IMG/VR virus record: IMGVR_UViG_3300025168_000908 | Location: 1 to 20,125 of that record | Length of the DNA: 20,125 nt | Source of the DNA: a virus | Direction: 5' to 3' (one strand) | In this document: positions 1-17,583 of the stretch, one piece after another | How the letters are laid out: each line of letters begins with the position of its first letter | Position numbering within the stretch: the first letter of the stretch is position 1 | The notes under the pieces: generated by a model | The model's input: only the letters and a program-made list of their open reading frames with translations | What the model was told of the DNA's origin: nothing | Database searches by the model: none | Translations under genes and position numbers: made by a program

Positions 1-94
1 CAAACGTATATTCAAAAGAATATAGAACGCCGTGCTGACTTTCATACGTACCCGCACCTTGTATGCTGGTTACTTTTTTAACTTGATTTCCCAT
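1..94 (-). CDS. N-terminal part of an unknown phage protein, cut by the window edge
   Basis: An ATG at 94 opens a frame that runs without a stop to the window edge and gives 31 residues beginning MGNQVKKVTSIQGAGTYES. The alternating pattern of hydrophobic residues and glycines suggests a small beta-barrel start. It resembles the N-termini of small phage nucleic-acid-binding (OB-fold-like) proteins, but 31 residues are too few to assign a family. It is divergent from the early plus-strand cluster, and a TATCTTTG box lies about 30 bases upstream on the same strand, which supports this being a real gene start. The upstream sequence is A/T-rich with no Shine-Dalgarno motif, like the other genes here. 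Confidence 0.55.
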   Translation of the reverse strand, partial: MGNQVKKVTSIQGAGTYESQHGVLYSFEYTF

Positions 95-122
95 AATATT
101 TTTTTAAGGATTAATAATAATG

Positions 123-130
123 CAAAGATA
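123..130 (-). promoter_or_regulatory. Promoter -7 box (TATCTTTG) for the minus-strand gene at 94
   Basis: The minus strand reads TATCTTTG here, an exact match to the Bacteroidota -7 consensus TAnnTTTG. It would start transcription around 115-119, giving a leader of about 20-25 bases before the ATG at 94. I do not see a convincing TTTG -33 element upstream, only A/T-rich sequence, so the call rests on the -7 box and its position. Confidence 0.4.
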
Positions 131-164
131 ATAAAAAGAAACTTTAAATAAAAATATAAATTTA

Positions 165-196
165 TTTGTTTTAATATAAACTTTGTTTTATATTTG
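165..196 (+). promoter_or_regulatory. Bacteroidota-type promoter for the early plus-strand cluster
   Basis: TTTG at 165-168 is followed, after a 20-base spacer, by TATATTTG at 189-196. This fits the known primary-sigma consensus of Bacteroidota (TTTG at -33, TAnnTTTG at -7). Transcription would begin near 200-204, leaving a leader of about 20 bases before the ATG at 222. It lies in the only long non-coding gap ahead of seven tightly packed co-directional genes, so it very probably drives them. The gap 95-221 between the two divergent genes is otherwise A/T-rich, with no further gene. Confidence 0.6.
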
Positions 197-221
197 ACAC
201 ATAATTAAACAATCAAACAAA

Positions 222-392
222 ATGAATTTAGACGACATCATAGAAAAAGCAATAATTGACGTTAAGTATTATCAAGAACGTCTAAGAGAAGCCGAATTAA
301 AATTAGATGCTTTTTATACCGCTCGTGATTGTAAAGGGGAAATAATTTACGATTGTGGGATGCCACATCATAATGAAAATTCAACAAAATGA
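222..392 (+). CDS. Small helical protein of unknown function (56 aa)
   Basis: The ATG at 222 follows AACAAA, the A-rich start context used by the neighbouring genes, and is about 20 bases downstream of the predicted transcription start. The product begins MNLDDIIEKAIIDVKYYQER and is mostly charged amphipathic helix through residue 36, then a short tail with C37, C45 and H49-H50. I recognise no family. Its TGA overlaps the next ATG as ATGA at 389-392, so it is translationally coupled and is the first gene of the early cluster. The tight coupling and coding-like composition argue it is real despite its length. Confidence 0.7.
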   Translation: MNLDDIIEKAIIDVKYYQERLREAELKLDAFYTARDCKGEIIYDCGMPHHNENSTK

Positions 393-724
393 ACCAATCT
401 ATAAAATGTGAGTTGTTAGAATATATTGAAACAACTTTAAAAGAATTAAGGCATTACAAAGATTTGCCAACAGAAATATCAGATTTACACCACGAACTAT
501 TTAACCAAGATTATTACATAATTGGTTATTACCAAGCGGAACAATGGCTTTTAAAGCACAACATAACAGCATTTCAAGGTATGGAGTATGTACACGATTA
601 TGAAGAATTCCATTTTGGAGAAAAGCGAAATTATACTAATGCCGAAGCTTTAGTTAATATGATTGTTTATATTAAAGGCGAAGAATTATTATATGAATTA
701 GAAGAAGAAATTTACGTAAAATGA
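389..724 (+). CDS. Conserved-type phage hypothetical protein (111 aa)
   Basis: The product is 111 residues, acidic and rich in Tyr and Glu. The stretch DLHHELFNQDYYIIGYYQAE (residues 32-51) resembles a recurrent small-protein family in phages of A+T-rich hosts, for which I know no function. No signal peptide, transmembrane segment or catalytic motif is evident. The fold is probably all-alpha, with predicted helices at the N-terminus (residues 5-22), in the middle and at the C-terminus. It starts inside the previous gene's stop (ATGA) and its own TGA overlaps the ATG of the next small gene at 721, so it belongs to a coupled early transcription unit. Confidence 0.75.
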   Translation: MNQSIKCELLEYIETTLKELRHYKDLPTEISDLHHELFNQDYYIIGYYQAEQWLLKHNITAFQGMEYVHDYEEFHFGEKRNYTNAEALVNMIVYIKGEELLYELEEEIYVK

Positions 725-4935: not shown

Positions 4936-5502
4936 TTAACATATATTTTTAATATTTGCACCCATTAAAAAGGATTGATACCTTAAATCTGATACAGTAA
5001 AATCTACATTTAAACCCTGAGTATAATTGTTTGTCGTAGGTGATAAATCCGAACCCGTGTTAGTGTTGTATTCGGGGTAACTTGCTTCATTGTCGTTTAT
5101 GTAATCTATTAACCTTTCACGATAAAATGTTGCCATATCTAACGCCTGGTCCATTAGCGGTTTTAAATCCTCATAGGTTGCCGCTTGACTTTGTTCTGAG
5201 TTCATAACCACTACCGCGTTATTTACGAATCTAAGGCGTAAAAACGGCACTAACTGAACAAAAGAAAACTGAACTGTCGATGGTATTACATAGTCGTTTA
5301 ATAGCGTTTGATACACGCCTGAAACAGTACCAGCATCGACTTCGGCACAAAGTTTATCATATAACTTTGTTCCCAGTACGGGTAAAATCCATCTTTGTTG
5401 TGCCATATACACATACGGGCGTATTAAATCGTCATCGACGCTACCACCTATGGCAGTATCTCTTTTTAATCTATTTGCTGAAACGAATAAAGCTTGGCTC
5501 AT
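4936..5502 (-). CDS. Head-tail connector/adaptor protein (188 aa)
   Basis: The N-terminal region reads VDDDLIRPYVYMAQQRWILP and then VLGTKLYDKLC. This is the pattern of the small helical head-completion (neck adaptor) proteins found next to portal genes, in Bacteroidota phages often as uncharacterised conserved proteins. They bind the portal ring after DNA packaging and close the head. The first ~130 residues are helical, and the C-terminal ~50 residues are Asn/Thr-rich and probably flexible or tail-facing. It is separated from the portal stop by only a six-A spacer (TAA-AAAAAA-ATG), an A-rich translation start without a Shine-Dalgarno motif. Direct adjacency to the portal supports the assignment. 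Confidence 0.65.
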   Translation of the reverse strand: MSQALFVSANRLKRDTAIGGSVDDDLIRPYVYMAQQRWILPVLGTKLYDKLCAEVDAGTVSGVYQTLLNDYVIPSTVQFSFVQLVPFLRLRFVNNAVVVMNSEQSQAATYEDLKPLMDQALDMATFYRERLIDYINDNEASYPEYNTNTGSDLSPTTNNYTQGLNVDFTVSDLRYQSFLMGANIKNIC

Positions 5503-5508
5503 TTTTTT

Positions 5509-7272
5509 TTAGTTATAGTATCCGTGATTAGGCATATCGATGGGTCGCTTTGCCACTTCTTTTGGGTTGGTTGGTATCCTTACCGCATCGCGTTCGCTTG
5601 GGGGTAAAGAAGTAATTAATTTACGTGCTTCGGTAACTGTTATTTTTTTGTTGTTCTTTTGTAAGTACGTTACCCTTTCCCACCAATGGTAGCAGTTAGG
5701 ACCGCCCTTGTAAAACCATATATCGTATGTCGGTGCGCCGTCAATTCCAAAACCTGGGTTAGCACCAAAACCTTTAATTATATTCTCTTTTGTGTAAACT
5801 TTTCCCGCCTTAATCATATCAAAACAAAAATCTCTTTGCGGTTTGTGTGTGTTCCTGTCGGGTGCATACCTATAACGGATTTTTATAAGTTCGTTATCTT
5901 GTTTGCTTTTCCCTTTACCATCGTTTCCCGTGCTTGGAATTACAGACGCAAATTTAAACAAAGCATCCATAACTGGTTCAGAATGTTCATCGGCTTTGCG
6001 TTCGTCTATCATATCGTATTCTTTAAGTAGTTCGTTTTCATCTTCACCTAACTTAATAAGAGCATCCGCACATTCGATAAGTTTTTTTTTTGAAAACTCT
6101 TCTGCATTTACACCCTCTTTTACTTGTTCGCCTTCGTCTAAAGTATCAATTACATCCAAATCTAAAAAGTCGGCTGGTTTAGCCGTAATAAAGAAAATAT
6201 CTAACTCAATGTCGTTTATAGCAAATAAATCACCTAAAGCCTTTAACAAAATATTTTGAAAAGGTGCTATTACTGTGTTATTGAATAGGCTGTAAGAATC
6301 GCGTAACTCGTCTGCGTTATTTCCAAACCCACCACCCTCAGAACGTACCCCAAACATTAACGGCGAAACCACACGATGCCCTGTTAATATTTTTTCGCTT
6401 ACTGTTTTACTTAGATACTCATACATAGTATCCGCTCCATTGGTGTCGATAGGAGTAAACTCAGGAGCCGTTTCATCACCATCGTTAAACGTAATTAAAA
6501 TACGCCCTGAATTATCCGCACCCGTAAATTTCTCAATTACTTTACGTTCTATTTGTATGCGTTCTTCTTGCGTAGGAACGCCATTTTTAAACGATAATAA
6601 CATAGAAGGAAAGAAACCCCGACGGATGTTATTTAAGTGAAATACGGATACCTCACGGTCTAACTCGATGTAATTTGTAGACCCCACGTAATCAGGAACG
6701 GCGTAATAATGTTGAGCAACAGAATACCTTTTTATCTGAAAACAAGTTGAAGCCTCGGTTCTGTCATCCATTTTAAAGGCTTTTAAGACCTTTTCTTCTG
6801 AACGCCTATCACTCCAATCATATTTGTAATAAAACTCACTCACAACCCCCTCAGAATCCGCTACACCGCTTCTAATCGTGTGAACAGGTAAATGCTTTAT
6901 TGCTCCTAACCGAGTTCTTGATTTATTCCATATAACGTTTAAATACGTCATACCATATAATTTAATATCGAATGCTATCTTTTGTAAAAGGTCGGTGTCG
7001 CTGTTATTCAGCAAATCTTGAAGCCTTAACCACTGTTCCTTTTTTTGGTCGTTTTCTTCCCTATCTACCGCATCCAATCCACCGCCATAAATCATATCCG
7101 AAACCCCGTTAACAATTGCGCCATGTGTGGAACTTGCTAAAAATAAATCTCGTAAATATTCGCCATAAAGATTATCTACGCCATAGTCAACCCATTTTTG
7201 TCCTTGCTTTTCTTTAAATAAAGGTATTTCTGTATTTCCGTAATTTAATACTGAGAAGTTTTGTTTTTTCAT
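5509..7272 (-). CDS. Portal protein with an extra C-terminal Cys/His domain (587 aa)
   Basis: Residues ~1-460 look like a phage portal protein: an N-terminal helical clip/wing region (DNLYGEYLRDLFLASSTHGAIV), a body with HLNNIRRGFFPSMLLSFKNG and helices EERIQIERKVIEKFTG, and the stem-region segment SPLMFGVRSEGGGFGNNADE, typical of HK97/SPP1-type portals. Twelve copies would form the DNA-packaging channel at one capsid vertex. Beyond that, residues 466-587 form a separate module: RNTHKPQRDFC (C483) followed by GGPNCYHWWERV (C527, H529). That motif recalls the C-terminal motifs of head-morphogenesis (MuF-like) minor capsid proteins, here apparently fused to the portal. The ATG overlaps the TGA of the preceding gene (ATGA at 7269-7272). 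Confidence 0.8.
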   Translation of the reverse strand: MKKQNFSVLNYGNTEIPLFKEKQGQKWVDYGVDNLYGEYLRDLFLASSTHGAIVNGVSDMIYGGGLDAVDREENDQKKEQWLRLQDLLNNSDTDLLQKIAFDIKLYGMTYLNVIWNKSRTRLGAIKHLPVHTIRSGVADSEGVVSEFYYKYDWSDRRSEEKVLKAFKMDDRTEASTCFQIKRYSVAQHYYAVPDYVGSTNYIELDREVSVFHLNNIRRGFFPSMLLSFKNGVPTQEERIQIERKVIEKFTGADNSGRILITFNDGDETAPEFTPIDTNGADTMYEYLSKTVSEKILTGHRVVSPLMFGVRSEGGGFGNNADELRDSYSLFNNTVIAPFQNILLKALGDLFAINDIELDIFFITAKPADFLDLDVIDTLDEGEQVKEGVNAEEFSKKKLIECADALIKLGEDENELLKEYDMIDERKADEHSEPVMDALFKFASVIPSTGNDGKGKSKQDNELIKIRYRYAPDRNTHKPQRDFCFDMIKAGKVYTKENIIKGFGANPGFGIDGAPTYDIWFYKGGPNCYHWWERVTYLQKNNKKITVTEARKLITSLPPSERDAVRIPTNPKEVAKRPIDMPNHGYYN

Positions 7273-9302
7273 TGTGAGTAAACGTATTGCGTTAACGTAG
7301 GGTCGTATTCATTAAATGCGGATGTTATTTCGCTGGTATTACCATTGATATTTTGAACAAACGCCGTGCCTTTTTCTAAAAGTTTCGTGGCATTTGTTGG
7401 GTCTAAATTTACGGGTAAAATAGGCTGTTCGTAAATTTTAAATTCATAAAATCCCATTGGGTAGGTATCTTCTCCTCCATTAGAGTCATAAAAAGATATT
7501 ATTCCATCAGCTGGGTCAGTAATTCCATCTTTACTTACTACTGTAAAATTTATTTTTGTATAACGACCGTTATTTGCAGTTATAGAAGTAGGGATAAAAT
7601 ATATGCTATTTTGTGAAGCCATAGATTTTAATTCTATTAAATAACTAACTGTAGCTTGTGCAATAGTTTGAACATCGGCAGCAGTAACATATATGCTTTG
7701 GTCTAAATATGTAGCTAATTTTTTTACTGAAACATTAGTAACCGCAAAATTATTATTAGAAATGGAAGAACCATATATTCTAATTCCAGACGTCCCACCT
7801 TCTACGTCACCAATAAAATCAAATGTATAATCACCATCAGCTTCGTAATTACTACTAATTGGAACAGCTCCTCCCGTTGTTTTCCATTGTACACTTCCTG
7901 AAACATAATCTAACACAGAAAAAGATGCTCTATAAGTTACGTTTTCTTCTATGGTAAATTTTTGTTGGTTAAAATTTTCACCTACAGTAGTATTGTTAAA
8001 TTTTGCTCTATTTTCTCCTATGCTTAAATCATTACTTGATAAAATCCAATCTTCATCAGGGTCAAGAAGTTTAAGGTAAATATATGACATTTTTAAAGTT
8101 CCCGAAGTAGCAGAAGAAAAAAACCTTAATGCCTTAATAGAAGTGGTGTTAGTTACTTGTATGTAAACATTGTGAACCGCAACTGTAGAAGGTAAAGCGT
8201 GTGGACCAAAAGAACTTTCACCCGATAAATGAAAGTCAGTTCCACCAACTAAAGTATTTTCTAAAATTTGATATGTTAATCTATAAGATTTGTAATTTTC
8301 GACAGTAAAATTTTGATACAAAAAACCCCTTACTCCATTTGGAGTTATTTTTGCTAAACCTGTTTCTATAACCCAACCATTTTCTACAGTCCAATTTTGT
8401 CCGACTTCTTTAATTGTTATGTTAGTTATAGTAAATTCTGTATTTATACCACCTACAAACCTTATATATGATGGATATGAATTATCATATATTCCATAGA
8501 TTGTCTTTGTGCCGCTTGTTGTATAAAATCTATTATCTAATTGACCGAACGCACCTGTATTACTTATTCCTATAGTTGTCGTTGTTGCGCTTATAATATC
8601 TAAATCAAAAGTGATTTTATAATTTTTAGCATTTACAAGCGTTCCAACAGTTTGCTCTAAATAATTACTTGAAGTTGTTTGAATTGATTTTGCTTTATCT
8701 TCTATAATACTCCAACCCGTTCCAAGTGTCCAATCTTCTCCGAGTTCTTTAACTGTAATGTCTTTAATTTCAAACGTACTACCTACTTCACCACTGAAAG
8801 CAATTGTATTATACGTACTTGAATAAGTGTTTGCAGGTTTATAATATGTATATTCTACAAACGAAGATGTAATATTTTGTTGGAATGGTTGTGGGTCTAT
8901 TTGATCACTCCAACCAGAATAAAATTCGCCACTTCCCGTTATTATCCTTGCTGTAAATTTTACAATATATGATTTTGAAGCAAATACTGTAATAATTTGA
9001 TTCAAAGCAAAATTTGCACTTGATGAATAAGTTGCTCCCATACCTACAACAGTAGCATAACCATCACTTAAAGATGTCGTACCTAAAACATTCCACGCTG
9101 TAGTTCCTAAAGGGAAAGAGCCATCCGTAACTAACTCGCTCCCCGTTGCACTAAAATCGCCATTCGTTACAAGTTCATCACCTATATCGTCAAATGTTCC
9201 ATTGGTAACTAAATTAGTAGTACTTACTTCATCAAAATTGCCATTTTGCACCAATTCAGGGTCTATAGCTGTTTCTTTATTTAAGGAAGTAATTTGTAGC
9301 AT
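7269..9302 (-). CDS. Multi-module carbohydrate-binding-like virion fibre or decoration protein (677 aa)
   Basis: The ATG at 9302 is preferred over a TTG one codon earlier. The N-terminus has four short tandem repeats of the type LVTNGTFD (residues ~15-63). Then come about four modules of ~115-130 residues (roughly 62-190, 191-304, 305-419, 420-530). Each ends in a linker like ITVKELGEDWT, ITIKEVGQNWT or LKLLDPDEDWI and has the 'W..GxGW..xxGxAK' beginning and beta-rich body of CBM_4_9-type jelly rolls. The C-terminal ~145 residues (YLDQSIYVTAADVQTI ... GFYEFKIYEQ ... LDPTNATKLLEKGTAFV) form a different domain that I associate with Bacteroidota phage virion proteins. The gene lies between the capsid and portal genes, so I infer a head- or neck-attached glycan-binding fibre. 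A tail fibre is the alternative. Confidence 0.7.
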   Translation of the reverse strand: MLQITSLNKETAIDPELVQNGNFDEVSTTNLVTNGTFDDIGDELVTNGDFSATGSELVTDGSFPLGTTAWNVLGTTSLSDGYATVVGMGATYSSSANFALNQIITVFASKSYIVKFTARIITGSGEFYSGWSDQIDPQPFQQNITSSFVEYTYYKPANTYSSTYNTIAFSGEVGSTFEIKDITVKELGEDWTLGTGWSIIEDKAKSIQTTSSNYLEQTVGTLVNAKNYKITFDLDIISATTTTIGISNTGAFGQLDNRFYTTSGTKTIYGIYDNSYPSYIRFVGGINTEFTITNITIKEVGQNWTVENGWVIETGLAKITPNGVRGFLYQNFTVENYKSYRLTYQILENTLVGGTDFHLSGESSFGPHALPSTVAVHNVYIQVTNTTSIKALRFFSSATSGTLKMSYIYLKLLDPDEDWILSSNDLSIGENRAKFNNTTVGENFNQQKFTIEENVTYRASFSVLDYVSGSVQWKTTGGAVPISSNYEADGDYTFDFIGDVEGGTSGIRIYGSSISNNNFAVTNVSVKKLATYLDQSIYVTAADVQTIAQATVSYLIELKSMASQNSIYFIPTSITANNGRYTKINFTVVSKDGITDPADGIISFYDSNGGEDTYPMGFYEFKIYEQPILPVNLDPTNATKLLEKGTAFVQNINGNTSEITSAFNEYDPTLTQYVYSQ
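9114..9263 (-). repeat. Four degenerate tandem repeats encoding LVTNGTF-type units
   Basis: The translated repeats read PELVQNGNFDE, NLVTNGTFDD, ELVTNGDFSA and ELVTDGSFPL, spaced 13-18 residues apart at the N-terminus of the fibre-like protein. At the DNA level they are degenerate, with synonymous changes, so this is old tandem duplication rather than a recent expansion. Each resembles the first strand of a CBM-type jelly roll, as if module starts had been duplicated without their bodies. Confidence 0.6.
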
Positions 9303-9338: not shown

Positions 9339-9371
9339 TAAAAAAGGGAGGAAGCGCATTGCCACCTCCCT
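9339..9371 (-). terminator. Rho-independent terminator after the capsid genes
   Basis: Read on the minus strand, AGGGAGG (9371-9365) pairs with CCTCCCT (9351-9345), with GGC/GC-rich pairing possible inside the loop, followed directly by TTTTTTATTTT. It lies ~22 bases past the stop of the virion protein gene at 9394. It would give the protease-to-capsid part of the operon its own 3' end while allowing partial read-through into the fibre, portal and lysis genes. Confidence 0.8.
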
Positions 9372-9393: not shown

Positions 9394-9993
9394 TTATGCT
9401 GCTGTAATTGTTAGGTCTGCAGAGTCAGCAAGTCCATCGAAAGGGAATTTAGCTGTCGCAACTCCCGCACTTGCGGGTAATATGTATAACGGTGCTTGTT
9501 CCTTAGCTGTGAAATTCAACGTTAGTCCATTCATATCACTTCGATTTGTACCTGTAGCAATAGAATCCCCACCCGTTAAATAACACCCGTCAGTTATACC
9601 CATTAAGTAGACATTATCGTTTGAATCTTGCACGAATATTTGTGCGCGATTTTTAGAGATAAGTCCAAGTTGGTATAAATCAGCAGCCACAACTTTTTGT
9701 AGAACTACGTCTAAAGTCTGATTCCACATAACCGAACCCGTAGCTTTATCAGCTTCAACGGCTGAACTAAAAGTTGAAAGGTCAGTTACTAAATCATATT
9801 TAAAAACTGTCACCGTAGTGTCTACAATATCCCAGTCCGCAAAACCCGCGTCCGTTATAGTATATGAAGACGCAGTTACGGTTGCTTCTTTTAAAATATC
9901 AGAGCAATAAGAACTACAAAAATAGATGGCTTTTAAACCGCCAATGGCGTCACGGCAATCAATGCCCCTCGCCGAGGTAATTGCGCACGGCAT
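9394..9993 (-). CDS. Virion structural protein, possibly tail tube or capsid decoration (199 aa)
   Basis: The N-terminus (ITSARGIDCRDAIGGLKAIYF) matches a pattern I associate with abundant structural proteins of Bacteroidota phages that are encoded right after the major capsid gene. The middle (WNQTLDVVLQKVVAADLYQL ... NRAQIFVQDSNDNVYLMG) and the segment MNGLTLNFTAKEQAPLYIL resemble the beta-sandwich and late 'LTFTAKE' strand of tail-tube proteins. Tail tube is therefore my preferred inference, with capsid decoration as the alternative. It is only four bases from the capsid gene and is followed by a strong terminator, both of which suit a highly expressed virion component. Confidence 0.65.
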   Translation of the reverse strand: MPCAITSARGIDCRDAIGGLKAIYFCSSYCSDILKEATVTASSYTITDAGFADWDIVDTTVTVFKYDLVTDLSTFSSAVEADKATGSVMWNQTLDVVLQKVVAADLYQLGLISKNRAQIFVQDSNDNVYLMGITDGCYLTGGDSIATGTNRSDMNGLTLNFTAKEQAPLYILPASAGVATAKFPFDGLADSADLTITAA

Positions 9994-9997
9994 CTAT

Positions 9998-10978
9998 CTA
10001 TGTAAAGTTAAATCCTACAACACCATCACTCGCTACTGCTGTTTGAACTCCAACAGCGAAACGCATCGAAACTCTTACATTATCAGAACCATCGTAAGCG
10101 TAGGTAGGAATTAGTTGAGCAGAAATATCAGGTGTATAACTGTTTGCACCTACAACCAAGTTGTCAGGGTAAGTAAATACACAAACGTCAACAGTATTAG
10201 GAATCCCCGCAGTTGGATAAACTGGGTATCCTAAGAAAGATGCACCATCTAAAGATTGATTGTAACTTGCACCTGTATTCAAAGCGGCTAATGCTTGTAA
10301 ATAAAAAGCATACGCCTCGTAAGAAACATAAAACCCACACCCTGGCTTTTGTAAAATACCTGGAATCCCTGCGGCTGCATCAAATACTAAACTAAGATTA
10401 GCTAAAATATTAGCTGCTGTCCAAGCACCACCCGCACCCGTATCTGCTTCAACAAAATCAGCACAAGCAGAAGCATCAATACCCGCTTCGTCAATTACTC
10501 CATCGTTAGAAAGGAAACCTAATCCAAAAACAGCACCCGCGTCTGCTTGCCATATAAGATTTTCAAGGTTAGTACCTGTTCTTTCAGCAACAGCACCTAA
10601 AAGGAAGTCAGTCCACGCAACGGGTAAATTCCCATCTCTTTGCATTCTTCCGTTTGCGGCTATCCAAGTTGGGTACATAGTACCTCGGCAGACTTCTTCC
10701 ATAACAGCTAAATCTGAGGGGTCTAAAACTTGTTCTGTTAGTGTAAGGTCTGCACCATCATTCCACGCACAATTAGCTGCTTGGATTGTGTCGGTAGTGG
10801 TAAGACCTGAAATAACAGACTTTCCAACGATACCTTCTAAAAAGCGGCAACGACCTTTTGCAATCGTTTCCGCACCGAGTAAAGCAGCGGTGACATACGG
10901 CAACGCTAATTCACCCGCATAAGTGTTTGCTCCGATTGTAATATCGAAGTCATACTTTTTTGAATTTATTAAACTCAT
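9998..10978 (-). CDS. Major capsid protein, HK97-like (326 aa)
   Basis: The 326-residue product, rich in Ala and Gly and low in Lys, has the size of an HK97-fold major capsid protein without a long delta domain. Features that fit include an early E-loop-like segment (GELALPYVTAALLGAETIAK), a central helix (PVAWTDFLLGAVAERTGTN), a helix/strand pair around GCGFYVSYEAYAFYLQALAA, and a C-terminal ASFLGYPVYPTAGIP loop. 'G(Y/F)PV' before the last strands is typical of this fold. Context is decisive, because it directly follows the prohead protease and scaffold genes. Hundreds of copies would form the icosahedral shell. The ATG overlaps the scaffold's TGA (ATGA at 10975-10978). Confidence 0.85.
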   Translation of the reverse strand: MSLINSKKYDFDITIGANTYAGELALPYVTAALLGAETIAKGRCRFLEGIVGKSVISGLTTTDTIQAANCAWNDGADLTLTEQVLDPSDLAVMEEVCRGTMYPTWIAANGRMQRDGNLPVAWTDFLLGAVAERTGTNLENLIWQADAGAVFGLGFLSNDGVIDEAGIDASACADFVEADTGAGGAWTAANILANLSLVFDAAAGIPGILQKPGCGFYVSYEAYAFYLQALAALNTGASYNQSLDGASFLGYPVYPTAGIPNTVDVCVFTYPDNLVVGANSYTPDISAQLIPTYAYDGSDNVRVSMRFAVGVQTAVASDGVVGFNFT

Positions 10979-14261: not shown

Positions 14262-14431
14262 GTGTATGCTTTTATTCCTTGTTTGACTTTCTTAAAAAAC
14301 CCCTTAAATCCCGTATATTCATAATATCCATACAGAATCAAAGAATTGTTATCTTTTATTACTTCACTTTCTTGTGCCATCCTTATTGAATAAGGTATAG
14401 ACTTTCCGACGTTATCTATGTACTTTTTCAT
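14249..14431 (-). CDS. Small conserved-position tail protein (60 aa)
   Basis: The 60-residue product begins MKKYIDNVGKSIPYSIRMAQ and contains SLILYGYYEYTGFKGFFKKV. It is Tyr- and Lys-rich with no transmembrane segment. It is tightly coupled, with an ATG on an ATGA overlap with the tail-tip gene's stop and a 3' end running 13 bases into the tape measure gene. Genes of this size next to the tape measure can be tail assembly chaperones, but I see no frameshift arrangement here and do not recognise the family. A small tail-tip or assembly factor is possible from position only. Confidence 0.65.
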   Translation of the reverse strand: MKKYIDNVGKSIPYSIRMAQESEVIKDNNSLILYGYYEYTGFKGFFKKVKQGIKAYTWQK

Positions 14432-17400
14432 TCTTGCTCTAAATAGTTTCCGTTTTCCGTTGTGAGATATTCATAATTTTCGGTAAGAATTAAATTGTCT
14501 AAAGTTTTGGTAAATCCAATATCTAAATATGTAACCTCACAATCTAAATGCCACGATAGAACAGAATTGGCTGGACCTGTACACACAATATTTACCCCCC
14601 TATTTCCCGCAAATCCCGTTTTTCCCGCTGCACCTACTATGTCAATAGTTCTTGTTCCCGCATCACTGTCTTTTTCTTGGAAATCGGTTTGCTCAGAACC
14701 CCCAACGATTGTAATTGTACCCCCGACATTTTTCACCAAAAACGTCCACACTTGAAAAGCAGACGAACCATAAGAACCCGTTCCACCTGTTAAAACGTGA
14801 GTTTGTACACTTAAAGATCTTACAATTATCCTTGCCATTGTGTCAAAGGAAATCATTAAATTAGATATTTCTCCAATTACCCCATTTGGTGTAGCTGTCG
14901 TGGCTGTATTAGAACGTGTGGTAGCATAATAGATAAAAGACTTATTTACCGAGTTAGTTATACTTTCTACATTTTGCCCCCTTGTGCTGTGTTCTCCTTG
15001 TACAGGGTTTATGTTTGGCACTCCACTACGTTTCCTTGAATGAAAGCCACCTACACCTCTTAAATCAGAAATGCCCCCTATAGTGTCATCGCTTGGGTAA
15101 CCATGTGGATTCCACCCCCCAAGTCCTGTTGTTGGATCACCGCCTCCACCGCCTCCACCACCATAACGCCAATAACAATTTGAACCATCCCAAAAATATC
15201 GGAACTCCTTACAACAATCTTCATCTATTACCGCAGCACCCGTTTCGTCATTTTGAAATAATACTATCCCATTAGCCTGAAAAGCAACAGGTGAAGCTTC
15301 ACAATCGTCGGTAGTATCATTGATTTGTAAAGCGGGTATTTTATTTATCTTTTTTAATAGTTGTACTTTGGTGGGTACGTTTGCAAAAGGTTGGTAGTTT
15401 TCAATTTTTAAAACCCTGTAATTAGTATCCTCAATAAAAATTTCATCGTTGAATTGAAAGTTGTGTATATCGGTTGCTGTTAAGTATAAATAGCAATCTA
15501 ATATTCTTGCATTTTTATCATAGTAAGACATTAAAAACTGTTGCCAATATCGCTTGAAATAACCCTCAGAACTTGGTGTAGTTCCAAAAATCTCACCACC
15601 CCATGAGTCGGGGGTTTGAAATTGCCAATATAATAAAGGTGAATCTTCTGCCATTTGCGCCCCCGCATTATAGAAAGGTAAACACAAAGGATAGGAGTAC
15701 GATTCCTGTAACCCAATATAGATTCTATCGTTAGGTAATAACCCTTCTAATCCATTATGGTAAAATAGTTTTGGTTTATTACTTGCTAATGGTCCTTCTG
15801 TTCCTGGTGCATAGCATTTATGTATAACCAAATTTGGTGCATCGGTTACTGAACTGTCATCCTGTCTTGGTACGGGGTTAACATGGAAAGGTGAAAATAT
15901 CGACTTATTTTCTAAAGTTCCCGTTAAAAAATCACCTGTAACCTGTTGCTCATAGTTACCAAATACTTCTCCATAGACTTCTTGGTTAGATACGTTTCTA
16001 CCATCTTCACCCTCAGCATCGCTAAATTTTATAAGTTGTTTTTTGTATTGTGTTGTGGGTGAGATTATCCTATCTTGAGATAAATCTATTTTTTTAGTCC
16101 AATCTTTTCTTGTTCCTAAATTAATATAATCTTGGAACGGCATAACAGTTAAAGTGTTATCATTAGTTTCGTCTGCAACAACTACTAAATTGAACCTTTG
16201 TATAATATCTGTGATAAAATCCGTTTGAGAAATATCGGGAATATTACCAGGCAAATCACATACCCCCGCTAACGTTCCCGAAGAAACTACAGTAAAATAT
16301 GTACCCGCTGCTAATAAATTTACACTGTAACCCGCTTCTACTGTTGCCCTTGCTTTAATGTTTAAATTTTGTCCGCTTAATCCATATACTGAAAAAGGTA
16401 ATGTTACAGTTACTAAATTAGCCGCACCACCATCGTTTCCATTTGCGAAAATTGGTGACATTTCAATATAAGAATTTTGAAAAAAAGAAAATATAGAAAG
16501 TTTTAACTCTACCCCTTGTGCTATAGATGCTGGACCTGTATCAAACGTAGCTGTAAAGACTCCGTTAATTTGTCCATTATAAGGAAAATAAAAATAACCA
16601 TCAGTATCCCAATCGTCTGCAGAATCATAAAAACTTGGTGGATTTGAAGATGCCCCCGCACCTGTTTGTGTAGGAAATAAAATATTTACCCAATCACCCG
16701 AACCATTTTGTATAGCACTTGGTGACCCATGCCATTCTGTTATGTTTGTAGCTGTCGTGTTTCCTACTTGACTTTGGTGCATGGTCGTAGTTGCCATACT
16801 TTCCCTATCCGTTCCCAAAGTCATATATGCCTTTTCAAACGCATCAGAACCAATAAAGGCGTTGTTGCTCAAATTAAAACCCGCTTTTTCAAATACTTTG
16901 TTAAATAGATATTTTAATTTAATGGCTGGTTTTAAATCTTGTGGCTGTAAAAAATTTGGTTCGGTTAACCCATAATCACCAAAAGCGTTATTTTCTAACC
17001 ATATAAAATTATACTCACCTACAAAACCATAATCTATTAAAGGAAAAGTAATAACACCATTACCTACTGTTCCCAATGTTACATCGTTAGATAAATCCCA
17101 AGAATCTATAATATTAGCATCTGAAACGTTAACATTATAATCTGTGGTAAATGAGCTTCCAAAAGCGAATAAATCTTTTAACTTTTTATTTTCTATAGAT
17201 TGAAATAAATTGGCTTCATTTCCATAAACTACAATCTGATAACTTTCTTTTTCTACGTTACAATTTACCAATTTAAAACTACCCGAAATTACAGGAACAC
17301 CATCTACACGAATAGAACATTTACTTTTAAGGTCTGCATTATATTGTGAAAGCGGTTGAGATAATACTGCTAAAGTGTCAACATTAATATTATAAAACTG

Positions 17401-17583
17401 TCTAAAAAATTTATTATTTGTATTTGTAAATGGTAAGTTAAAAGATTGTGAGTATGGCGAATTTCTACCAACTAAATTTCCAATATCCCCGATTTCATAA
17501 TTTAATGAAATAGACCCAGGGTTATCTAAATCTAAATAGTGTGGGTTGTCATACGTTTGGTCAAATGCAACTAATTGAATCAT
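14428..17583 (-). CDS. Tail-tip / baseplate hub protein (1051 aa)
   Basis: The first ~130 residues (LNYEIGDIGNLVGRNSPYSQSFNLPFTNTNNKFFRQF ..., SCSIRVDGVPVISGSFKL) match a recurrent start of large tail proteins in Bacteroidota phages and resemble a Dit/hub-type beta domain. Residues ~460-800 contain a central hub-like part with LVVVADETNDNTLTVMPFQD. An eight-glycine run with flanks (WRYGGGGGGGGDPTT, about residues 803-816) then acts as a hinge. The C-terminal ~235 residues form a separate beta-rich domain that may contact the cell surface. I infer a tail-tip hub carrying a receptor-proximal domain. The N-terminal family resemblance is the strongest evidence. ATGA overlaps couple it to both neighbours. 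Confidence 0.7.
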   Translation of the reverse strand: MIQLVAFDQTYDNPHYLDLDNPGSISLNYEIGDIGNLVGRNSPYSQSFNLPFTNTNNKFFRQFYNINVDTLAVLSQPLSQYNADLKSKCSIRVDGVPVISGSFKLVNCNVEKESYQIVVYGNEANLFQSIENKKLKDLFAFGSSFTTDYNVNVSDANIIDSWDLSNDVTLGTVGNGVITFPLIDYGFVGEYNFIWLENNAFGDYGLTEPNFLQPQDLKPAIKLKYLFNKVFEKAGFNLSNNAFIGSDAFEKAYMTLGTDRESMATTTMHQSQVGNTTATNITEWHGSPSAIQNGSGDWVNILFPTQTGAGASSNPPSFYDSADDWDTDGYFYFPYNGQINGVFTATFDTGPASIAQGVELKLSIFSFFQNSYIEMSPIFANGNDGGAANLVTVTLPFSVYGLSGQNLNIKARATVEAGYSVNLLAAGTYFTVVSSGTLAGVCDLPGNIPDISQTDFITDIIQRFNLVVVADETNDNTLTVMPFQDYINLGTRKDWTKKIDLSQDRIISPTTQYKKQLIKFSDAEGEDGRNVSNQEVYGEVFGNYEQQVTGDFLTGTLENKSIFSPFHVNPVPRQDDSSVTDAPNLVIHKCYAPGTEGPLASNKPKLFYHNGLEGLLPNDRIYIGLQESYSYPLCLPFYNAGAQMAEDSPLLYWQFQTPDSWGGEIFGTTPSSEGYFKRYWQQFLMSYYDKNARILDCYLYLTATDIHNFQFNDEIFIEDTNYRVLKIENYQPFANVPTKVQLLKKINKIPALQINDTTDDCEASPVAFQANGIVLFQNDETGAAVIDEDCCKEFRYFWDGSNCYWRYGGGGGGGGDPTTGLGGWNPHGYPSDDTIGGISDLRGVGGFHSRKRSGVPNINPVQGEHSTRGQNVESITNSVNKSFIYYATTRSNTATTATPNGVIGEISNLMISFDTMARIIVRSLSVQTHVLTGGTGSYGSSAFQVWTFLVKNVGGTITIVGGSEQTDFQEKDSDAGTRTIDIVGAAGKTGFAGNRGVNIVCTGPANSVLSWHLDCEVTYLDIGFTKTLDNLILTENYEYLTTENGNYLEQE

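Follow-up and report, generated by a model that had tools for sequence, protein, structure and literature searches.

CBM-type modules on phage necks, mosaicism at the level of domains, and domains nested inside other domains are each already known separately. In the 936 lactococcal phages, carbohydrate-binding modules (CBMs) are found on the neck passage structure and vary between related phages, and when fused to green fluorescent protein (GFP), a CBM from the neck and another from the tail bound host cells (PMC6669499; here and below, what we say of cited papers refers to the accessible parts of their texts). The BACON tandem repeats of crAss-like phages are arrays of a carbohydrate-binding type that evolve by duplication and horizontal exchange (PMC6949934). 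The GH10 xylanase Pm25 has two CBM4 modules inserted in its catalytic domain, and by our reading the primers used to clone them correspond to LVDG(S/N)FE at the domain start (PMC7848910). The pilus adhesin RrgA has domain D3 in D2, and D2 and D3 in D1, with its stem domains drawn from both flanks (PMC5333627), and DNA polymerases show an insertion cascade, domain inside domain, with the caution that insertion and terminal extension may be two ways of describing one arrangement (PMC2662426). Here we consider IMG/VR virus record IMGVR_UViG_3300025168_000908, a stretch of 20,125 nucleotides (nt) that we call the window, and in it a gene for a 677-residue protein encoded between capsid and portal. 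We consider it quite probable that this is a conserved virion-type protein of about 150 residues carrying, near its N-terminus, an inserted array of recursively nested CBM-like modules.

Each module would be split into an N-terminal segment of the LVxNGxF type (S) and a body (B), the rest of the module from a tryptophan (W) onward, with the next module occupying the split. The sequence and the predicted structure indicate that module 1 apparently lies inside module 2, module 2 inside 3, and module 3 inside 4, and the array parses as S1[S2[S3[S4-M1]M2]M3]M4-core. Like the CBMs of families 16, 4 and 22 and a porphyran-binding CBM (2zey, 2y64, 4xuo, 8xmz), the modules are predicted to be beta-sandwiches with an N-terminal segment followed by a body; unlike these, they fall below the Pfam CBM_4_9 cut-off, are split, and host copies of themselves. 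Insertion inside another domain is shared with Pm25, although its two CBM4s are described as tandem and not mutually nested (PMC7848910). The likeness to RrgA is an analogy of architecture, not kinship: RrgA combines different domains at fixed depth, with isopeptide bonds (PMC5333627), whereas the phage array nests one module family in itself to varying depth. DNA polymerase nesting likewise involves unlike domains rather than copies of one module (PMC2662426). As in the 936 neck passage structure, CBM-type modules would be borne by a neck- or portal-associated virion protein, a position deduced here from the genes, but the 936 CBMs come after a BppU-like ring domain at the N-terminus and a stalk of helices, and the accessible text describes no nesting (PMC6669499). 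The crAss-like BACON arrays are similar in their exchange but are tandem and tail-associated, and nesting is not mentioned in the text available (PMC6949934). The domain-level mosaicism of phage proteins reported by Smug et al. (2023) is also alike, the word "nested" being absent from the accessible main text (PMC10684548). Self-nesting CBMs are not described in the available parts of PMC10734457 or PMC2662426. The open-access literature searched yielded no nested domain insertion in phages, none of the motif strings, and no recursive self-nesting CBM-like module; nor did we find there a description of a self-nesting family with varying depth, of a bracket rule holding across many virus contigs, or of block sharing at fixed seams.

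A first-pass annotation of this DNA had proposed four modules of about 115 residues joined by near-repeated linkers, with duplicated start fragments ahead of them and a distinct domain at the C-terminus. The modules and linkers (M1, residues 70-190; M2, 191-303; M3, 304-416; M4, 419-531) are borne out by self-alignment against shuffles and by a profile built from the family, which detects all four. Among the pairwise scores, each compared with 500 shuffles, M1-M2 reached 90 (highest shuffle 62) and M2-M4 66 (highest 61), M1-M3 at 52 and M2-M3 at 54 were each equalled by one shuffle and M3-M4 at 47 by three, and M1-M4 gave no signal, its score of 31 being reached by 308. On these alignments we regard the similarity between modules as real but modest. 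The C-terminal domain (534-677) is indeed distinct, 128 to 378 of the 500 shuffles reaching its scores against the modules. The start fragments LVQNGNF, LVTNGTF, LVTNGDF and LVTDGSF do precede M1, but they are not spare copies: three are short, and the fourth is M1's own. None of M2, M3 and M4 has its own LVxNGxF segment, while three surplus segments stand ahead of M1. These appear to be the N-terminal segments missing from modules 2-4, so the modules would be nested and not, as first proposed, tandem.

The same balance is seen in other carriers. Segments and bodies number 2/2 in locus L002, 3/3 in L003, 4/4 in L039 and 5/5 in L025; in L007, L020, L021 and L024 they number 6/6, and the orders, though more complex, still form closed brackets. 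A crude count over whole proteins, our first test, gave equality in 57 of 91 cases (shuffle maximum 45), among the matches listed, and an intermediate parser of contiguous runs gave, with the same scope, 212 runs, 166 of them balanced and 120 of those a single S+B. The first full set drew its carriers from whole-protein, core and pattern scans and held at least 171 non-redundant runs, at least 54 of them with more than one S or B; among the matches listed, 44 of 54 such multi-element runs had equal numbers in the correct order, against a mean of 15.9 and a maximum of 29 in 20,000 permutations (41/53 at an alternative threshold of 9, 44/54 at 6). A fresh set was gathered with a different pattern (body end, then W), keeping the motif, profile and gap limits frozen and the contig-edge filter slightly stricter. 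Once 25 contig-end runs and 9 previously seen runs had been excluded, 50 of 61 multi-element runs, again among the matches listed, were equal and ordered (shuffled mean 26.1, maximum 40). Two six-deep stacks (L162:1162-8448 and L175:4303-11508) have six segments and six bodies, some identified by eye, in proteins of about 2,400 residues.

Evidence that is, at the level of sequence, independent of segment counting comes from a second insertion site in five distinct carriers, where the body is cut after KA.S.QALG and resumes at E(I/V)(A/S)TSYL. The order there is W(T/S).G.GW....KA.S.QALG, a complete inner block, E(I/V)(A/S)TSYL, and the remainder of the body. The two halves cover profile positions 1-16/17 and 23/24-105/107, and the rejoined bodies cover positions 1-105 or 1-107 with 47.6-58.5 bits, exceeding either half. 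The interrupted body of L048 is 98.1% identical in amino acids, over 106 residues, to a body in L134 that is contiguous with its S.

An AlphaFold2 model of residues 1-532 (76 sequences) had a mean predicted local distance difference test score (pLDDT) of 81.9 and a predicted template modelling score (pTM) of 0.77. Compared by VIA, CBM16 2zey_B aligned to it with Z 15.0 and a root-mean-square deviation of 2.0 over 125 residues, spanning model residues 14..529 and chain residues 3..146; CBM4-2 2y64_A also spans 14..529, the phage tailspike entries 5w6h_A and 8iqe_C span 26..413 and 25..417, and the porphyran-binding 8xmz_A spans 53..188 (Z 15.1). We read these ranges as S1+M4, S2+M3 and S4+M1 pairs in the model. 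By DSSP, strands occur in the linkers that precede S2, S3 and S4 (26-30, 40-43 and 53-56). In a separate model of M4 plus core (28 sequences), M4 is a good sandwich, 9 of its first 12 ten-residue blocks having pLDDT of at least 80, and M4 without S1 aligns to 2zey_B with Z 10.7 over 111 residues, from chain residue 17 to 146, and to 1gu3_A and 8xmz_A from chain residues 14 and 26. By these predicted models (Z 10.7 and 15.0 to 2zey_B) the modules have a CBM-type beta-sandwich fold, and both sequence parsing and the predicted model give a nested-domain architecture of the RrgA type, with halves on both flanks. None of eight S+B modules reaches the cut-off of Pfam CBM_4_9 (PF02018), and one of the eight matches it, at 20 bits versus 25.9; for 28 bodies searched against Pfam, CBM_4_9 is not listed and one body touches AlcCBM31 at E 0.058. 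In neither structure comparison do the 50 rows listed name an immunoglobulin (Ig) domain.

The probable ligands of the modules are polysaccharides, either on the host surface or in the surroundings of the host. It is rather unlikely that the CBM-type fold instead binds protein, or that the modules are spacers that extend an appendage: ephrin-receptor, meprin and toxin domains are among the folds listed, but the top structure rows are CBMs (the porphyran-binding module, CBM16, CBM4 and a hyaluronan-binding module).

The core on which the array sits occurs with and without it. A search of IMG/VR with the whole protein found 18 loci, and one with the C-terminal core found 28 contigs (31 rows, three contigs being entered twice as L004/L027, L005/L023 and L012/L028). 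Portal and/or capsid genes flank the core in 28/28 contigs, at 69-91% identity for the portal and 72-89% for the capsid candidate; the portal adjoins the core gene in 26, and L024 and L039 end before the portal. In eight of the 28 (L031-L038, two with the same protein) a module-less gene lies in the same genomic place, its product beginning MLQI(Q/R)NAS and passing after a few residues into the core (xIYVT(A/C)ADVQ in most). Nineteen have an array, whole or partial, between a MLQI(Q/R)NAS-type start and the core, and L040 is cut inside the core. Because the array sits between start peptide and core, we place its insertion near the N-terminus of a conserved protein of about 150 residues. Alleles with 0, 2, 4, 5 and 6 modules are found, six being the highest number counted at this locus, so variation in module number between related phages, which the first-pass annotation had offered as a check, is present.

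The core, which is C-terminal in the 677-residue protein, gave no significant match to Pfam, PHROGs or PDB sequences, with nothing better than E 0.095, and was modelled with low to medium confidence. Searches of Pfam and PHROGs with the whole protein found no covering family, the sole match being EKR, below cut-off. tblastn found no match in named phages, whether the query was the core, the L088 array or the whole protein, a core pattern scan of genome contigs gave 26 pattern matches but no relative, and a BFVD search with the M4+core model returned mostly unnamed viral proteins and no identity for the core. Nonlabens phage P12024S, a distant relative with a portal 34% identical, was isolated from seawater on Persicivirga, which we take to be a flavobacterium. 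The resemblance of the portal to those of Nonlabens phages prompts our guess that phages of the window's group infect flavobacteria. In the same genomic place it has gp05 (NC_018271; L159:3031-3408), of 125 residues and unknown function, whose gene overlaps the portal gene by 4 nt; profile comparison of the core with gp05, using a low-depth profile, detected no similarity.

The modules appear to have been exchanged between quite different genes. Across 135 representative carriers we surveyed blocks of at least 150 nt and at least 88% identity shared by proteins that are not globally alike. Of 114 interior block ends, 65 fall at two seams (36 at the W seam, 29 at the VSVKE seam) against 13.0 expected if uniform, and when ends are counted once per breakpoint, 49/93 do so against 10.6 expected. 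A 455-nt block is common to the window and L003, and its edges are sharp and at seams: it starts two codons before S3 and ends one codon past the W of M2. No other DNA match was found between window and L003, and 0/6 window proteins were found in L003, so one inner unit occurs in two dissimilar phages, in a different gene of each. At residues that match, codon identity is 0.580 at seams versus 0.473 in bodies, a weak difference, with unlike residue make-up, that we do not use. A transposon-like element is rejected in favor of short-homology recombination, which the sharp seam ends fit; no search aimed at such an element was made. The metagenome number 3300025168 appears in the contig names of L003, L026 and L033, so the dissimilar phage (L003) and the group of the window (L026, L033) may co-occur.

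Module carriers are of many kinds. The L003 carrier has 528 residues, of which the C-terminal 128 match phrog_347, a tail terminator (E 2.3e-6); the genes on either side are presumably an HK97 gp10-like gene and a likely major tail protein, labels that we assigned from gene order. Other phages (L013-L019, for example L015:5464-7374) carry these nested modules within a large protein, the N-terminal part of which, in L014-L019, we take to resemble a LamG domain. The L015 carrier also matches phrog_347 (E 1.4e-9), but in another part of the profile than L003, so the tail-terminator label is doubtful for L015. This diversity, with several carriers looking fibre-like or unknown, would suit a host-range protein of the tail-fibre type that merely lies among head genes and is not on head or neck. 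We think this unlikely for the window, since the position of the core between phrog_19091 and the portal is conserved and module-less versions of it exist, and since the L003 carrier is tail-terminator-like. The head or neck position first suggested for the protein agrees with the synteny in 28/28 contigs, and the likely anchor is the core, whose gene lies with those for capsid and portal.

Several points weigh against nesting, or against how we trace its exchange. In the non-trivial subset of the crude count, 23 of 57 were equal against a shuffle mean of 15.0 and maximum of 28, which is not decisive, and the contiguous-run parser was devised after that count. The loci L026, L006 and L030 obey the rule only when divergent segments that escape the motif are counted by eye. 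In the first set, 10 of 54 runs are unbalanced automatically and are explained by eye alone, by divergent segments that sometimes split the run (L030, L026, L119, L006, L103), contig ends (L125, L146) and false segment hits (L085, L108, L148). The pattern used for the fresh set favours nested arrays, and 11 of its 61 runs are likewise unbalanced automatically and explained by eye alone, three as cut at contig ends (L239, L220, L173) and eight by segments that the motif missed. A rejoined split body scores below the sum of its halves. The structure-match ranges give the first and last aligned residue alone, the S3-M2 pair has no row among 50 VIA rows, DSSP makes LVxNGxF itself no strand and finds none within residues 14-23, and the AlphaFold2 alignment included nested rows, with M4 covered by 1-4 rows at sampled positions. 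Shared-block ends fall in conserved motifs, which blurs the exact crossover points, and a PHROG match for the L003 carrier is obtained with its C-terminal 128 residues but not with the full-length protein.

Equal counts would follow likewise if the short fragments completed the bodies of neighbouring subunits in an oligomer, the numbers balancing without intramolecular nesting, and virion appendages are often trimeric. Such exchange between subunits strikes us as improbable, because the split-body arrays of the second site are nested by sequence order alone and because the model of a monomer, with the ranges as we read them, already pairs S1 with M4 and S2 with M3. Four tandem modules strung like beads, with the extra LVxNGxF fragments as linkers or partial-duplication relics that have no structural partner, we reject as most improbable: tandem CBM arrays are common, slippage can yield short repeated fragments, and M1-M4 share little sequence, but fragment number tracks the bodies without a segment of their own in two data sets, and the first CBM residues, missed by M4 without S1, are matched once residues from 14 are present.

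Table 1. Features of the window around the nested array (positions are those of the 20,125-nt record)
Feature	Position	Strand	Remarks
DUF6712 protein	4936..5502		downstream of portal
Portal protein	5509..7272	-	phrog_33693, E 1.4e-101; start overlaps stop of 677-residue gene by 4 nt
Core structural-type protein with putative four-deep nested CBM-like array	7269..9302	-	677 residues; ATG 9302, stop 7269-7271
Core domain DQSIYVTAADVQ...	7272..7703	-	without modules in 8/28 related contigs
M4 body, outermost module, adjoining core	7710..8048	-	profile; structure matches of two models
M3 body	8055..8393	-	profile, AlphaFold2 model, structure match
M2 body	8394..8732	-	profile, AlphaFold2 model
M1 body, innermost module, predicted distal tip	8733..9095	-	profile, AlphaFold2 model, structure match
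455-nt block common to window and L003	8728..9182	-	445/455 identical, 97.8%
S4 ELVTDGSF, module 1 N-terminal segment, contiguous with M1 body	9114..9137	-	8xmz_A, model range 53..188, Z 15.1
S3 ELVTNGDF, inferred module 2 N-terminal segment	9153..9176	-	motif and bracket rule
S2 NLVTNGTF, module 3 N-terminal segment	9192..9215	-	structure rows with model ranges 25..417 and 26..413
S1 ELVQNGNF, module 4 N-terminal segment, outermost bracket	9234..9257	-	profile/motif; CBM16 and CBM4 over model residues 14..529
N-terminal peptide MLQITSLNKETAIDP	9258..9302	-	counterpart of first residues MLQI(Q/R)NAS in module-less alleles
phrog_19091 protein	9394..9993	-	PHROG match; syntenic in relatives
Major capsid candidate	9998..10978	-	phrog_11320 (unknown function), phrog_1623 (virion structural); syntenic in relatives

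The genes run, going downstream, from the capsid candidate through phrog_19091, the 677-residue gene and the portal to the DUF6712 protein (Table 1). The placement between capsid and portal given by the first-pass annotation is confirmed, with the phrog_19091 gene as an additional neighbour on the capsid side; the candidate assignment as major capsid is our own reading of its PHROG matches. The listed open reading frame of the 677-residue protein begins at a TTG one codon ahead of the ATG. A terminator-like hairpin with a T-run lies at 9349-9370 (-), between the phrog_19091 gene and the 677-residue gene (1 found, 0.3 expected), and by eye a similar hairpin sequence precedes the gene, whether or not it has modules, in 14 of the other 15 loci compared, L038 being the exception. 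Elsewhere in the window, 14428-17583 (-) encodes a 1,051-residue protein in the presumed tail region, for which neither Pfam nor PHROGs gave a match at E 0.1.

If the array is nested as proposed, the chain would ascend through the four S segments and descend through the four bodies, each module hosting the next, which would give a hairpin-like stalk with both chain ends at its base and module 1 at its tip. Bodies would be exchanged between phages by recombination at the two seams, NGDF..DW and NVSVKE..W. Short-homology recombination may be the route, which the Erf-like annealing protein and exonuclease encoded by P12024S would suit. An inner S[..]W block could then be dropped into another module or another carrier, changing the number and sort of modules while leaving the fold intact. 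In a stalk rooted by both chain ends and tipped by the innermost module, such exchange could bring greater length or a new tip with base and attachment unchanged, and phages displaying it on head or neck may gain adhesion to host or matrix. We give about even weight to a broader proposal, in which the module is a recursive mobile coding unit. It would enter, in frame, a fixed loop of its own fold, a second loop as well, and unrelated virion proteins (the core protein beside the portal and a tail terminator); the seams would allow nested modules to be gained or exchanged, and the stalks of many environmental viruses would follow the balanced-bracket rule in stacks of up to at least six.

If this is true, a simple rule would suffice to parse many viral proteins that at present have no family or function and contain puzzling short repeats, and they could be folded correctly, with each body aligned separately. 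Phages would have a concrete route for extending and diversifying their surface appendages, with the inside swapped and the fold kept, and it would become possible to test what makes the number of modules at a single locus range from none to six. The array would also serve as a naturally occurring model in which to study how a domain copes with being inserted into itself again and again.

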